Positions 2,383-11,020 of a stretch of 11,020 bases of DNA are shown one piece after another. The stretch comes from Jimgerdemannia flammicorona (taxonomy: Eukaryota; Mucoromycota; Endogonomycetes; Endogonales; Endogonaceae). Location of the stretch: NCBI GenBank assembly GCA_003990745.1, contig RBNI01006738.1, positions 1 to 11,020 of the forward strand. Direction: 5' to 3'. Under the pieces are notes generated by a model. The model did no database searches. It saw only the letters and a list, made by a program, of their open reading frames with translations, and was not told the DNA's origin. Made by a program: the position numbers and the translations under genes. Numbering within the stretch: the stretch's first letter is position 1; the number at the start of each line of letters is the position of its first letter.

Positions 2383-3784
2383 ATGGCGCAAACTGAATAT
2401 TTCGACAATAGCGAAGGAGAGCATGCTGATAGTAGGAGGGTCAGCGACGACCCGAACATTGATAAGCACGGGCGAAGGGTGAAACTTTCAAGGCCTGCTT
2501 ACTGCCACAAAGCCATTGATGGTGCGCATTTCTCTCTCCACAGGCTCGGCAAACAATCCCCCCGACGACCGTCAGTCCAACCAAGCGTCATGTTATTTGA
2601 GCTCCTTCTTTCCTCGCTACTCAAGAGACATGATGTTTGTGGGACGTGACCAAATCTTCCAAAAGCTGCGTGACGCATTTGAGAACACCGACGACGAAAT
2701 AGGTTGCAAGCTGGTCACCCTCCGCGGACCCGTCGGCTCGGGCAAGACCTTCCATAGCCTCCGAGTACTTTTATCAGGCCGAGGGCGAGTATTCCTGCAT
2801 GCTCTGGGTAGAGGCGACCAGCATGACGGCGGTTTGGGAAAGTTTCACCGGATTATCGATAGCGCTCGAGCTCAAGGTGCCGCTGACTGGCGATCCCGAC
2901 GTGACCATTGTCGCCGTGTCAAAGGCAGAAAAGGTGGTTCATCGTGCTTGACAATTTGGGCGAGGACGAAAACTTCGATGTGTCAAGGCTCTTCCCCGCA
3001 CAACTGAACGGCGGCCACATTCTCGTCACTACTCGCGAACCCGTTGACCCCAACGACGAATCTTCCGTCGTCATCGACCTGGATGACCCGGAGATGAGAA
3101 TGAGTACGGACGAAGCATTGCATCTCCTGGTCTTCGCCAAAGCGGCCGACTTTGAGGTACGCAACGTCATCGAAGAACTGAACCGCCTACCGCCTAGCCG
3201 GCGCCCTCATCAGGGCCCACGGGATGACGGCAAAGGAATTTCTGGACGAGTTTAGAGGCAAACCCCTATGGCTCAAGTACGACGATTCCAACACCACCTC
3301 ACATGAATTGACGACAAGGGTTTGCGACATGTCCCTAAAGCGCATCCGCCGTCTCAACCCTTTGGCCCTCCGCCTCCTGTGCGGCTGCTCGTTCCTCCAT
3401 CCCTATCGGGCTCTTTCGCCGGCACTCGTTCTTGGTCAATGAGCCCTATGTACAGCCGAATGAGACCGAGTTGGGGGAGGCGCTCCACACCTTGTTTCAG
3501 TTCAATTTTTTCCGCGGGGTTGATAAGAAGGTCAACGCGGCTGATTCTGGCGTCCTTTACCTCATCGCGCACCGCTTGGTCGTGGCCACGGCGCGTCGTC
3601 GCATGGACCCGCCCGAACAGGCGCTTTGGTGTCATGCCCTTCTTACCGTCATGGAGCAGGAGGTGCCCGCCGAGGGGACGGAACCGACGCCCGGGTTCCT
3701 TTCTCTGCTACCTTACTGGTCACAAGGGTTTGGTAGGCAACCTTCCAAGTCCACTTTCCACAACTAATACCCCCTCTACCTCGG
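2383..3784 (+). pseudogene. NB-ARC (NLR-type) gene, frameshifted and truncated
   Basis: STAND-type ATPase as found in fungal heterokaryon-incompatibility and immunity-like receptors. Seen in order: VGRD of the N-terminal linker (near 2638), P-loop GPVGSGKT (near 2728-2751), ASEYFYQ helix and LWVEA (near 2757-2818), Walker B FIVLDN (near 2939-2957), ILVTTRE (near 3019-3040), an LPLAG-like motif (near 3190-3207), then a post-NB-ARC helical part with LYLIAHRLV (near 3556-3583). Reading these in one protein needs four frame changes, near 2750, 2935, 3195 and 3436. Each is a shift in the same direction and each could be explained by one extra base in a doubled base. The proposed start is ATG 2383 (G at -3, G at +4), joined by a 112-base intron to the NB-ARC exon. 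That leaves only a short N-terminus with no effector domain. The end merges at about 3784 into CpG-free repeat DNA, so the sensor repeats (usually TPR, WD or ankyrin) are missing. NB-ARC identity is confident; start, intron and non-function are less certain because assembly errors could mimic the frameshifts. Confidence 0.8.
2432..2543 (+). other. Candidate intron in NB-ARC gene
   Basis: The 5' end is GTAGGA (weak), a CTTAC branch-like motif lies near 2507, and the 3' end is TTTCTCTCTCCACAG (strong acceptor). Removing it joins the ATG at 2383 in frame to the exon that leads into VGRD. The phase match is seen in sequence; use of the sites is inference. Confidence 0.4.
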
Positions 3785-6421: not shown

Positions 6422-6654
6422 TGAATACTACTCTATATATCTTTTGCTAGTACCTCAGACAGCAATAGCAAGAAAGTACTCAAATTGAGTCTACTTTAAA
6501 TTATTTTATAATTATATAAATCATAATTAATCTCTTTAGTAATAGTTTTTTTAATATTAGTACTTTGCTATAATTAACTTTAACTCAAAATTTACTTTCA
6601 ACTCTCTTTATAACTTTATAACAACTATATTATTTTATATTGAAAATTTAAAAA

Positions 6655-6862
6655 AGCTTCAATTATATCAATAAAAAAGATATTACATTGGAGATTTTTA
6701 GTTATTTTTATCAATTATATTATTTTTATCACATTTGTACTAAGTATTACAAGCCAGATTATGAGTACTATAAGTATCTATATCAATTGTCCTCTGACTT
6801 TGATGATAAAGAGCTAGTAAAGTAGAGAAGAGTAGAAGAGATCATTATTTAGTTCAAGATAG
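6655..6862 (+). pseudogene. Coding-like relic cut by the LTR element
   Basis: An open frame of 56 codons from about 6655 to 6822 reads as ordinary mixed protein (segments HICTKYYKPDYEYYKYLYQL and SSDFDDKELVK), then TAG at 6823 and another TAG before the LTR at 6863. In such AT-rich DNA this length without a stop is notable. The retrotransposon appears to have inserted into it. No family recognised; it may be part of the same old element as the 3785-5290 relic. Confidence 0.3.
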
Positions 6863-6974
6863 TGTGATGGTTAATCCAAATTAGTAATATGAATCAGAGG
6901 AATTAGACATTTGATTGTGGTACCTGAATCTAATTCCCAGTATAGTATAGCCTTATAGTTAGCCAAGTCTCTGA

Positions 6975-7076
6975 TTTAGACAATGTCAAAATATTTCGAC
7001 ACTTGCGAAATCAATGACCCGATATAGTATAGTATTTAGACAATATCGAAAAGTCTCAACACTTGCTAAATGACTC
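6975..7076 (+). repeat. Imperfect 60-bp direct repeat in U3
   Basis: TTTAGACAAT, then (T/C)CGA or CAAAA variants, then ACACTTGC and AAAT, occur at 6975-7019 and again at 7035-7076, a 60-base offset. The second copy is preceded by TATAGTATAGTA, and a similar TATAGTATAG precedes the first. Duplicated blocks upstream of the TATA box are typical of LTR enhancers; the regulatory role is inference. Confidence 0.6.
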
Positions 7077-7122
7077 ATAACTTAGCCATACAACTTAGTA
7101 GCCATCTCATAGTTAGCAAACT

Positions 7123-7133
7123 TATATAAATAA
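7123..7133 (+). promoter_or_regulatory. LTR TATA box and nearby AATAAA
   Basis: TATATAAATAA sits about 210 bases before the LTR end, and AATAAA follows at 7151-7156. The pair fits an RNA polymerase II start at the U3/R border with a poly(A) signal at or near R. Not tested; AT-rich sequence gives such motifs by chance. Confidence 0.5.
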
Positions 7134-7338
7134 CCCAGTATCTTAGAGTGAATAAACCTCAGATCAAAATAGTTCAAAGCAAAGAGAAAGCAAAGGAACT
7201 AGTAAGCCTGCAGACAGATACACTTTGAACTCACCCACCCCTATATACCGAGGACTCTGCAGAGTCAAAGAAGATCAAGAATTCAAGATACAGAAATCTG
7301 ATGTACTTATAAGGTTAAGTGTCCACTACATTACAACT

Positions 7339-7355
7339 TGGTGCCCATTGGCTGG
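7339..7355 (+). other. Primer binding site (minus-strand cDNA priming)
   Basis: TGGTGCCCATTGGCTGG begins three bases after the LTR end. TGG at this place pairs with the CCA end of a primer tRNA. I cannot name the tRNA, and pairing may cover only the first 8-12 bases. A leader of about 80 A/C-rich bases follows before gag. Confidence 0.65.
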
Positions 7356-7437
7356 TAATTCAAGACAAATCCCTCACTTTCAAGCTGAACAACAAACAAC
7401 CGCTACCACAAGAACTCACACAACACAATCAGACAAA

Positions 7438-8535
7438 ATGGACATGAGACCACCTGTATTCTCTGGATATACTTCGGATGAATCAATCATTACCTTCATA
7501 GATGATTTCGAGCAGTATGCTGCTATTAGGATCTTAACTGCAGTACAGCAAGTAGCCCTCATGCCCTACAGCCTACGAGGATCTGCAAGAGTAGCATTCA
7601 CAGCTGCAACCTATGCAGGAAATGATGCCGATGCTATACTGAATGCACAGAAGACCTGGCTCCAGAATACCTATTACACAGATGAGATCAAGCAAGCTCT
7701 GAAGGACCAGCTCAATACAATATGTCAAGAAATGAGTAAGGATCCAAACACATTCTTCATAAGAATCCGATATCAGATAATCCTCACAGATTATGCTGAT
7801 GCCATCCGAGACCAAGTAGCTGAAGCAATCTTTATGAAAGGAGTTCACCCAGAGATAGCCTTGGTCATCCGCTCATCACTAGTAGTCCTGGATCTGGCAC
7901 AAAAGGTCACCTATGCTCAGCGATATTGGATAGTCAGATATCCACAAGACCACATAATAGAAAGAGTGACTGGAGTTAGAATCGAAGTACCCAAGACAAC
8001 CAGTGTAATCCCTACCACTATGATCAATTAAAAGACACCACAACCAAGAGCTATAGAACAATAGAGAAATAGTGATCCTATGAAGAAACTTGCTAAGCAG
8101 TTTGCCGAAATAACTGCTCACCTAGGAGATGTGGTAAAGGAAATCAGAGGAAGAGATCGCTACCCAATTCAGAAATTTGCCACCACCTCAGATAAGAAGA
8201 AAGATACCTGCTACAGCTGTGGAGAAGAAGGCCACTATTCATATAAATGTATGAGTAAAACCAAGTGCAAGGCCCAGCCAAGCAATACTACTACTAGAAA
8301 TAAGGAGCAAGCCAACATTATCACCTTTGAGGAGATTGGAGATTCAGACAAGAAATGGGAGGCCTATTCTGCTCAGACCACTAAGAAGGATGTTCACAAG
8401 GAACCCTATAAGAGACCACCAGGAAGACCCAAGAAGAACCCAGTGGAAAAGCAGATGGAAACAACCACAGAAAGCCAAGCTGAAGAAATGGATCAAGACA
8501 TAGAGCTTGAGCAAGCAGTCCAAGATATCATCTGA
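7438..8535 (+). pseudogene. gag (capsid and nucleocapsid), with in-frame stops
   Basis: Structural protein that would form the virus-like particle and package element RNA. I chose ATG 7438 (CAAAATGG context) because the open frame further upstream runs through the LTR and primer site. Codons 1-190 or so have the Ty3-type gag core pattern (PPVFSGYTSDESIITFIDDF at the start, then helical stretches up to about 7940). A CCHC zinc knuckle, C-x2-C-x4-H-x4-C, lies at 8209-8250. An AT-hook-like PPGRPKK follows at 8416-8436. The frame is broken by TAA 8029 and TAG 8062 and ends at TGA 8533. The first two are naturally read as decayed Gln codons, and the frame continues smoothly after each. After TGA 8533 the same frame stays open to TAA 8626 and reads TKTFKYDIFKDLSQ, which belongs to the gag-pol junction, so gag and pol were probably one polyprotein or joined by a frame change. 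Confidence 0.85.
8413..8436 (+). other. AT-hook-like motif in gag
   Basis: Codons encode RPPGRPKK, matching the AT-hook core (GRP flanked by basic residues and proline) that binds the minor groove of AT-rich DNA. It lies about 55 codons after the zinc knuckle, in a Lys/Glu-rich tail. One hook only; it could also act as a nuclear localisation signal. Confidence 0.6.
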
Positions 8536-8804
8536 GGAACCACTCCAGCAAGTGAAGGAGAAAAGGAGAAGAAGCTTCACAAGACCAAGACTTTCAAGTA
8601 TGATATCTTCAAGGATCTTAGCCAATAAAAGTCAATGCAACTTTCAGCCAGCTGGTAGAAATCCCCACATTCAGGCAGCAAATGAGATTTGGACTTGCAG
8701 AGACCACTAAGGAGCAAGGTTGAAAGATAACAGAGGCCAACAATGTTCAAGAAGACTCTAGAAAAGAAAGTGAAGACAACTGCAAGACTTCTGCCTATGC
8801 AACC

Positions 8805-9119
8805 TGCCAAATCGAAGATAGAATCTTTGAAGCCATCATAGACACAGGAGCAGGAGGATGTCTCCTTAGTAAGAAGGCAGTAGATCACTTAGGATGGGAG
8901 ATCGAAGAAGCAACCAAGCTAGTATTCATTACAGTAGATGGCACAAGAGCCACCCCTCTGGGAAAGATCCGAGATGTTCCCATCAAGTTTGGAGGAGCAA
9001 CTATCCCAGTTAATGTGATTGTAATCAATGCAACCAACTATGACATCCTCATTAGCAACCAGTGGCTTCACAAAGCCAGAGCAATAATCAATCTGAATGT
9101 ACAGAAGATGCAGATTGTT
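8805..9119 (+). other. Aspartic protease domain of pol
   Basis: IIDTGAGGCLLS carries the retropepsin active site DTGA at 8841-8852. The second conserved feature, an NYDILISNQWL segment near 9039-9068, matches the usual D-[IV]-[IL]-[LI]-G-x-x-W-L pattern, with Ser in place of the usual Gly. Retropepsins act as dimers to cut Gag-Pol. The domain is intact between stops TGA 8721 and TAA 9120. Confidence 0.85.
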
Positions 9120-9308
9120 TAACGAGGACAAAAGATGTGAATCTCTATCAATGTTAACAAAGGAGTGCTCCCCAAAATAGAGGAAGAAGAAGGTGAGCAA
9201 GAGGAAGCCTACATGGTAACTATGCAGAAAAAGAAGAAGAAAGTCGAATGGATGAGTGAGGAGGAATGGTGCAAGAAGATTGCAGAAGGATATGCACCAC
9301 AAGGAGTC

Positions 9309-9365
9309 TGCCCCCATGGAATCAAGATGTACTGTATGGAGCATGTCAATGATTGCTACCAATGC
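9309..9365 (+). other. Cys/His cluster between protease and dUTPase
   Basis: Spacing is C-x-H-x5-C-x2-H-x3-C-x2-C over 19 residues, enough ligands for one zinc ion and possibly more. It lies in a Lys/Glu-rich linker and differs from the CCHC knuckle of gag and from the HHCC integrase finger. Metal binding is inference. I do not know a named family for it. Confidence 0.5.
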
Positions 9366-9497
9366 ACTGGTAGAATCAAGAAGATCCACTATGAAAGAAA
9401 ACAAAAAGTTCTCAAAGAACAGGCCAGAAGAAAAAAGGAAGAGGAGGAAGATGACGAACCACCAGCCCTCCTAGAAGACAGTGATGATGAGGAAGAG

Positions 9498-9926
9498 ATC
9501 AAGGTCAAGATTCAGAAAATCCATCCTGATGCAGTTCTACCAGAATACAAGTTGAAAAATGCAGCCGGAATGGATATCGCCACAGTGGAGGAAACTGTAC
9601 TGGAGCCCCAGACAACCACCCTACTCACAACTGGACTGGAGATGACCATCCCAAAGGACCACATTGGAATTCTCAAAACAAGAAGCAGTCTGGCAAAAAG
9701 CGAAATCACCATTGAAGAAGGAGTTATCGATTCAGACTATATTGGAGAAATATTGCTCATTGCAAGGAACCATAATCCTACAATCCCATTCCCAATCAAG
9801 AAGAAGGACTGATTGGCACAGATGCTGATCTTCCCAGTACTACAACCAAAGATCATGAAAGTCAAGAAGTTGCAGGAAACAGAGAGAGGAAGGAAGGGAT
9901 TCGGATCTACAGGAAGAGGAGTATTT
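9498..9926 (+). other. dUTPase domain within pol
   Basis: dUTPase converts dUTP to dUMP and pyrophosphate and so keeps uracil out of cDNA. The trimeric-dUTPase motifs are all visible in order: I AGMDIA 9564-9581 (family AGYDL), II RSSLA 9681-9695, III GVIDSDYIGE 9720-9749 with catalytic Asp and uracil-site Tyr, IV D-stop-LAQ 9807-9821 (family GDRIAQ), V RGRKGFGSTG 9885-9914 with the stacking Phe. It starts with IKVKIQKIHPDAVLPEYK, the normal first strand. Motif IV is broken by TGA 9810 at the Arg codon. Known elsewhere from betaretroviruses and non-primate lentiviruses; in this element it sits between protease and RT. Confidence 0.9.
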
Positions 9927-10009: not shown

Positions 10010-11020
10010 ACTCAAGAAAGAACTCAAGAAGATACTCTATGAATTTGAGGATATTCTTGCTACAGATTTCAAAGATATCAAAGGAAAGACCCTATATTAC
10101 TATCATAATGTAGATACAGGAGATACTGAACCAATCTATCAGAAGGCAAGACCCATCCTGCCAGCCTACCATGAATGGCTCAGAGAAGAAATCAAGCAGA
10201 TGGAAGAAGCCAGTATCATCAAAGAAGCCAGTAGTCCCTGGGCTTCACCAGTCATACTAGCCCTGAAGAAAGGAAGCAAGCCAGGAGAATTCACACCAAG
10301 ACTCTGTACCAATTACAGAAAGCTCAACTTGGTTACCAAGAAGGATCGCCAATCACTACCTCTCATCAGCGACATTCTTGTAACTCTGGGAGATGAGGCA
10401 CAATACTACAGCACCTTGAACTTATACTCAGGATTTTACCAAATCAGTCTCACAGAAGCAGCAAGTGAGAAATCAGCTTTCATCACACCAGATGGAACCT
10501 ATGTCTACCTGCGAATGCTATTTGGAATATGCAATGCACCAGCAAGCTTCTAGCGAATGATGAACAAAATCTTCTACTATGATATGGGAAGATGGATGAT
10601 GGTCTATGTAGATGATGTAATCATCTACAGAAAGACAGCCAAAGAATACCTGCAGTACATCCAGTAGATGATAGAAAGGTTGAGGAAGCATGGTCTTTAC
10701 ATCAAACCGAAGAAATGTAAGTTTGTGGAAATCGAGATCTCCTACCTCGGACATGTCATTAATCGAGATGGAACATACATGGACCCCCTCAAGATACAGG
10801 CAGTAGTAGCATATCCAAGACCCACTACAGTCACTAAAGCCCAAGCCTTCATGGGACTCACCTCCTACTATCGCAGATTTATTAGAGGATTTTCCAACAT
10901 TGCAGGCCCAATTTACAAACTCAACAAGAAGGATATCAAGTTCCAATGGACTGGCAGGCAACAAAAAGCATTTGATGAACTCAAGGTCAGGCTGACCCAG
11001 GCACCCATCCTTAGAAGACC
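10010..11020 (+). other. Reverse transcriptase domain of pol, incomplete
   Basis: Recognisable blocks: FPLKKELKKIL start, PILPAYHEWLREEI, SPWASPVILALKKG, TNYRKLNLVTKKD, LPLISDIL, motif A STLNLYSGFYQI, FGICNAPASF, the catalytic YVDD at 10605-10616, then thumb YLGHVINRDG and FMGLTSYYRRFI. In motif A the first metal-binding Asp is replaced by Asn (AAC 10419-10421), which should abolish polymerisation. TAG codons at 10551 and 10665 also break it. The domain runs on to the window end, where RNase H would begin. Confidence 0.9.

Follow-up and report, generated by a model that had tools for sequence, protein, structure and literature searches.

A dUTPase domain between protease and reverse transcriptase in a Ty3/gypsy retrotransposon of Jimgerdemannia flammicorona, with two further dUTPase-bearing families in the same genome

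The window, that is, the whole stretch of 11,020 nucleotides analysed here (C6738:1-11020), carries toward its 3' end the 5' portion (4.2 kb) of a decayed Ty3/gypsy LTR retrotransposon copy from a family with many copies, hereafter family A, and positions 9498-9926 encode a real all-beta dUTPase domain. Family A is arranged as aspartic protease (PR), Cys/His module, dUTPase and reverse transcriptase (RT). We consider it likely that its lineage has long carried the dUTPase and that this domain would act on dUTP in the particle.

The dUTPase domain and the element that carries it

An earlier note on this DNA had described a complete five-motif dUTPase and proposed a Pfam check of the segment 9498-9926. 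This search returned PF00692 significantly on the plus strand in two pieces, 9498-9809 (E 6.3e-16, 58.8 bits, profile columns 4-85 of 129) and 9813-9926 (E 1.4e-5, 25.3 bits, profile columns 97-129 of 129), both above the curated cut-off of 22 bits. The pieces belong to one frame and are separated by an in-frame TGA at 9810-9812. In the translation of 9498-9926, the stretches that we take to be dUTPase motifs 1-5 follow one another as AAGMDIA (9561-9581), TRSSLAK (9678-9698), EGVIDSDYIGE (9717-9749), a motif 4 around 9807-9821 that is interrupted by the TGA, and RGRKGFGSTG (9885-9914); this order, with the Asp and Tyr of motif 3 preserved, is that of the all-beta dUTPases. The motifs and the full extent of the domain thus stand as first described, whereas an intact gene does not: this copy is broken inside motif 4, and its frame goes on toward RT past the TGA. 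At the position of this TGA, 47 distinct copies have a sense codon (31), a stop (13) or a different spacing (3). The first piece matched 68 distinct PDB sequences at E <= 0.001, and the dUTPase of an unbroken copy (L034) reached 99.1 bits with PF00692. The E-values of the dUTPase, together with its copies elsewhere in the genome, exclude a chance match. An AlphaFold model of the linker and dUTPase of L034 (19 alignment rows, mean pLDDT 74) was confident over residues 121-240 (pLDDT 88-98 per ten-residue block), fell from 72 to 41 at the end containing motif 5 and had low confidence along much of the linker. All 50 rows that Foldseek listed for a single chain of this model were dUTPases, by title or PDB sequence match, the best being 8k6w (E 2.7e-13, target TM 0.93). 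Hydrolysis of dUTP by a homotrimer is predicted for the family A domain.

The element opens with a 5' LTR at 6863-7335 (plus strand, as for all features of this copy), whose start was taken from alignment edges and whose end is inferred from TG...CA and a putative primer-binding-site-like stretch read from the sequence (TGGTGCCC..., 7339-7355). Among the 38 listed matches of window 6500-6960, a set that excludes the window itself and C3722, 29 start at 6859-6863 and nine up to 14 bases earlier. Window 6500-6862 is 81% identical to C3722:14705-15050, in a match that stops at the insertion point; the element is inserted within another repeat. A first part of gag (7438-8028, with ATG at 7438 and a stop at 8029-8031, in the open frame 7156-8031) had no match in the Pfam search. 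It is followed by a C-terminal gag part at 8065-8532 with a CCHC zinc knuckle at 8206-8253 (PF00098, E 3.4e-5, above the cut-off) and by PR at 8724-9119 (PF13650, Asp_protease_2, E 4.1e-9; PF08284, RVP_2, E 5.1e-9). A frame from 9141 leads through an acidic linker into the dUTPase, and the PR-dUTPase interval contains, at 9258-9467, this linker and a Cys/His module with the core C-P-H-x5-C-x2-H-x3-C-x2-C at 9309-9365. Downstream, at 10059-11018, come an RT broken by stops, including those at 10551-10553 and 10665-10667, and the start of RNase H, where the contig ends and cuts the copy short. The RT pieces of the window scored 27.9 and 20.0 bits, each just below the RVT_1 (PF00078) cut-off of 29.6, and PF17919 also stayed below its cut-off; the open RT of another copy reached 98.7 bits with RVT_1.

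The LTR repeat 6900-7200 recurs on the same strand at a distance of 6246-6252 bases on four contigs and of 6117 bases on a fifth, and the dUTPase match sits between the repeats on all five. The element is therefore flanked by LTRs at both ends on these contigs, as Ty3/gypsy elements are, the window's own 3' LTR lying beyond the contig. From the repeat spacing and the inferred 473-base LTR, its length comes to ~6.7 kb. The order zinc knuckle, PR, Cys/His module, dUTPase, RT, RNase H and integrase was pieced together from three copies. One of them, L034, answers the suggestion of the earlier note to look for open copies in the same genome: its 900-aa open frame holds everything from zinc knuckle to RT, with the dUTPase in frame between PR and RT. 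L049 contributes RT and RNase H, and L062 RNase H followed by an integrase zinc domain in another frame. Assembled in this way, the pol order is that of Ty3/gypsy elements (PR, RT, RNase H, integrase) and, with the LTR pairs, it bears out the assignment to a fungal Ty3/gypsy element. No chromodomain was seen by eye downstream of family A dUTPase matches among the best 150 of 1904 chromodomain candidates.

The LTR-type repeat also occurs in same-strand pairs 1.72-1.76 kb apart on C4381, C939 and C3092, and these closely paired repeats perhaps represent a short non-autonomous derivative. Elsewhere in the window, positions 122-1057 hold a piece of a gene whose best match is a bZIP-domain protein of Endogone sp. 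FLAS-F59071 (59% identity), ahead of a J. flammicorona protein (52%), with Umbelopsis and Mucor next. By this one gene, the host is a member of the Mucoromycota, probably within Endogonales or close to them. Open frames in several frames at 2483-3767, with AAA_16 below its cut-off on 2483-3004 (E 8.4e-6), perhaps mark a decayed STAND/NLR-type gene or a gene with introns.

Retention, selection and proposed function

The genome searched comprises 134.8 Mb in 7754 contigs; Endogonales genome sizes are quoted as 96-240 Mb in the part of PMC7928374 consulted. In the dUTPase search, the best 150 of 4941 candidates were all 85-100% identical, the 100% row being the window. All 30 loci picked by RT similarity, window included, carry dUTPase sequence at the place between PR and RT that the earlier note had reported, and copies lacking the domain, which it had named as the mark of a one-off insertion, did not occur among them. 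The first dUTPase piece lies upstream of RT in 29 of these loci; L069, which ends with its contig, has only 24 residues of the second piece. Both pieces are present in two of the most diverged listed RT matches (81-82% identity). Among 30 loci picked by the dUTPase, PR was found in 29 and an RT piece 160 residues long or longer in 27, the other three being L043 and L059, which end first, and the truncated L042. Since about 5000 candidates came up per search and the top 150 were scored, a dUTPase-free sister family may lie further off than the best 150 RT matches.

Pairwise NG86 estimates of dN/dS in RT-picked copies were 0.17 for the first dUTPase piece (bootstrap 0.14-0.22, n=29) and 0.20 for the second (0.14-0.26, n=27), and RT in dUTPase-picked copies gave 0.16 (0.15-0.19, n=27), the copies being non-independent, picked by similarity and in some cases present in both sets. 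Elsewhere in family A, values were 0.23-0.25 for PR, 0.26-0.29 for the linker with the Cys/His module and 0.25 for the zinc-knuckle stretch. Estimates from copies picked by the measured segment itself (0.10 for the first dUTPase piece, 0.14 for RT) were set aside. Together, retention across copies and these ratios indicate that the dUTPase is under purifying selection and has been kept about as strictly as RT.

A protein search that used this 900-aa open frame as query yielded 36 proteins from 7427 candidates. The first four of these pol relatives, all metagenomic, are P0139 (64% identity), P0140 (45%), P0141 (40%) and P0142 (36%), and in each of them a dUTPase precedes RT: Pfam marks PR-dUTPase-RT in P0140-P0142, and P0139 opens in a protease tail followed by dUTPase and RT. 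Where family A has the Cys/His module, there is, as judged by eye, a short spacer in P0140 and P0142 and a long insert in P0141. In the remaining 32 proteins, a dUTPase is marked only in P0163 of Geosiphon pyriformis, after a protease-like stretch recognised by eye without Pfam support. Identities in RT and dUTPase are 79% and 61% between family A and P0139, 51% and 44% between family A and P0140, and 63% and 66% between P0140 and P0142; they drop broadly together, as expected if both domains travelled together. In the RT tree, which leaves out P0139 because it is too short, family A groups weakly with P0140-P0142 (55/88), and the long-branched P0174 falls inside this group. A search of IMG/VR confirmed no relative.

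The stops that break the window copy would fit a host dUTPase gene that entered one element copy in a single or recent event and has no function there, but the occurrence of the dUTPase in all 30 RT-picked loci and in each of the four best relatives, a dN/dS of 0.17 and an identity of only 33% to yeast Dut1 make such an event highly improbable. This explanation was rejected on the strength of retention in RT-picked loci, presence in relatives and dN/dS.

Conservation of single residues was scored in 59 locus rows, which represent 50 distinct sequences and count some copies twice. The Tyr of motif 3 is kept in 59, the second Asp of motif 3 and the Asp of motif 1 in 58 each, and every residue of TRSSLAK in 58 or 59. 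The middle glycine of motif 5 is changed in 29 of 56 rows (Arg 27, Glu 2) and the glycine of motif 1 in 17 of 59 (Arg 16, Glu 1), and Asn replaces the first Asp of motif 3 in 8 of 59; these changes count against an active enzyme. Transitions affect 27% of CpG letters versus 5% of other C/G and 2% of A/T, and the differences among family A copies seem to lean toward decay in which CpG transitions dominate.

The altered glycines of motifs 5 and 1 would be compatible with a domain kept not for catalysis but for a binding or structural role, be it in nucleic acid binding, in particle assembly or as a trimer organising Gag-Pol. So would the Cys/His module, which adjoins the dUTPase both in family A and in family C described below, and the bovine immunodeficiency virus dUTPase-related protein, which is inactive and reported as critical for replication (PMC4261571, in the part consulted). 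We nonetheless regard such a role as unlikely, because hardly any of the 59 rows departs in motif 2, in the Asp of motif 1 or in the Tyr and second Asp of motif 3, relatives at 36-64% identity retain the dUTPase motifs, and a purely structural role is not expected to preserve active-site residues in this manner.

If the domain is instead a working enzyme, as we consider likely, it would be released from, or work inside, the Gag-Pol polyprotein, form the usual trimer and, while reverse transcription proceeds in the particle, convert dUTP to dUMP. Lower dUTP would leave less uracil in the cDNA, which could thereby escape uracil-excision repair when host dUTPase is low. According to the portion of PMC4531489 consulted, it is mainly in non-dividing cells, where cellular enzyme is scarce, that retroviral dUTPases are important. 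By analogy, the enzyme of the element would permit copying in cells outside DNA synthesis, and the setting could be hyphae or spores that are not making DNA. Copying in cells with high dUTP, as the earlier note had put forward, would be a reasonable expectation.

Families B and C and the origin of the dUTPases

Less expected than the layout of family A, two more dUTPase families, B and C, occur in the same genome with their parts in a different order. Family B comprises the loci L001-L030 from the Pfam search of the genome, with dUTPases 27-34% identical to that of the window; the window PR, searched against these 30 loci, had no match. In the nine family B loci whose frames were inspected, L004, L008 and L014 carry nucleocapsid, dUTPase and PR in one open frame, and the six others show parts of this order. 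A chromodomain lies downstream on the same strand of 22 family B search matches, on shared contigs identified by eye, at 3.20-3.24 kb (10) or 3.49-3.50 kb (12), and the two distances suggest two subfamilies. In family C, L091 has the order nucleocapsid, dUTPase, Cys/His module and PR. The zinc knuckles of families B and C score below the Pfam cut-off. A second family C copy, 96% identical to L091 at the protease end, provides the RT of this family (L092), which is 57% identical to that of family B and 43% to that of family A. The RTs of families B and C match those of P0155 and P0152, in which no dUTPase is marked, at 54-57% identity, as closely as they match each other; they group with Ty3/gypsy RTs in another lineage than that of family A.

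The Cys/His module precedes the dUTPase in family A and follows it in family C (L091:353-655, minus strand), and the two versions share 43% identity over 70 aa (E 9e-21 in a single comparison). This figure equals the 43% identity of the A and C RTs, so that the module alone does not show recent exchange. P0139 and P0001 carry the module as well, and P0002 shows a trace of it; in the set searched, nothing else among the proteins and family B frames matched, and among P0139-P0142 and P0163 the match was confined to P0139. Pfam yielded sub-threshold zinc-finger matches only (zf-C5HC2, E 0.0033, 18.1 of 22 bits), and a zinc-binding role is suggested by the cysteines and histidines of the module. 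Its occurrence on either side of a dUTPase provides a new testable lead.

The earlier note had considered that the dUTPase might have been captured from the host. That of family A is 33% identical to yeast Dut1 versus 44-45% to the metagenomic P0003, P0004, P0005 and P0007, which makes a recent capture of a host gene unlikely. With yeast Dut1 as query, the host's own dUTPase gene was not found in the best 150 of 4952 candidates (39-46% identity), of which the sequences inspected were that of C6352 (L091, family C) and those of seven loci of family B (L002, L003, L004, L006, L011, L012 and L014).

Separate RT and dUTPase trees were built, as recommended earlier. The starred branches of the RT tree require two or more changes of the dUTPase label. 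The best dUTPase tree needs four changes, yet the AU test rejected neither a single clade of the 13 element dUTPases (p 0.089) nor one of the eight type A dUTPases (p 0.184). Family A groups there with P0139 and P0002 (99/98) among prokaryote-like rows, the nearest row to family C is yeast Dut1, and a 98/94 branch puts family B on the side of yeast, although P0013 and P0031 are the single rows closest to it from outside the family. The non-element rows of this tree are yeast Dut1 and 36 of 120 listed matches, drawn by similarity to family A, and this bias of the outgroup makes the tree a lead only. Geosiphon P0163 joins family C (100/96, on a long branch of 3.83), which speaks against a simple PR-dUTPase-RT clade.

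On these sequence comparisons, separate captures by A, B and C are favoured. One ancient capture, followed by relocation in the polyprotein through recombination between elements, is a possibility that we hold to be less likely than not. It would accommodate the surviving single clade of 13 dUTPases, the Cys/His module common to A and C, and the Geosiphon dUTPase, which follows a protease-like stretch as in family A and groups with C. It accords poorly, however, with the four changes of the best dUTPase tree and the placement of C by yeast Dut1, B on yeast's side and A among prokaryote-like rows; with the closeness of the B and C RTs to those of two proteins without a marked dUTPase; and with a gap of one residue that A-type dUTPases have between motifs 2 and 3 and that is absent in B, C, P0105 and yeast, a comparison confined to these groups. 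A short domain and a biased outgroup make for weak trees on this matter. Returning to separate captures, we tentatively propose, with close to even confidence, at least two dUTPase uptakes by different Ty3/gypsy lineages at different polyprotein positions in one genome, with a Cys/His module that has no Pfam family travelling along between lineages. Were this true, it would imply strong recurring selection for uracil avoidance on the retroelements of these fungi; uracil in cDNA would be a recurring hazard if the families acquired their dUTPases separately, and A, B and C could be compared side by side within one genome.

Comparison with known dUTPase-bearing elements

The belief expressed in the earlier note that dUTPase-bearing fungal gypsy elements had been noted before is confirmed by published work (PMC2864245, PMC5408684; both consulted in part). 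Novikova et al. 2010 described PosPlaTy3-5 of Postia placenta, with a dUTPase between PR and RT (PMC2864245). This element and family A, compared by layout alone, share the arrangement PR-dUTPase-RT and are both fungal Ty3/gypsy elements; the host of PosPlaTy3-5 is a basidiomycete, and the consulted sections of that paper mention no Cys/His module. Other Postia families carry the dUTPase at the N-terminus or C-terminus of Pol, for which the same sections suggest independent acquisitions. The bdelloid rotifer LTR elements Juno, Vesta and TelKA have a dUTPase between PR and RT in all family members, as stated in the accessible portion of PMC5408684. Compared by layout alone, they resemble family A; their hosts are animals and they bear various third ORFs, and in Juno an additional zinc knuckle follows the dUTPase, whereas family A has the Cys/His module before it. 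Tmt1 of Tuber melanosporum and Phanerochaete elements are cited in PMC2864245 as fungal LTR elements with dUTPase, and for the place of the domain between PR and RT PMC5408684 refers to Riccioni et al. By the description of the citing papers, these elements resemble family A.

The main text of Muszewska et al. 2011 (PMC3248453) contains no word beginning with dUTP, and we found no literature on dUTPase-bearing elements in Mucoromycota, Endogonales or Glomeromycota, the nearest report, in the excerpt consulted, being of enriched TE-related Pfam domains including dUTPase in Entomophthora (PMC11105155). The PR-dUTPase-RT layout is already published for Postia and rotifers, so that the window element belongs to a known kind, and family A adds another element with such a layout. 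The short list of LTR elements with dUTPase is thereby extended to an early-diverging lineage of fungi.

In betaretroviruses, the dUTPase precedes PR. The resulting order of nucleocapsid (NC), dUTPase and PR is shared by families B and C, whereas family A has its dUTPase after PR and hence not between NC and PR. Betaretroviral NC is moreover fused to the dUTPase, as described in the consulted part of PMC4531489. The betaretrovirus-like position that had been attributed to the dUTPase of the window therefore fits families B and C better than family A.
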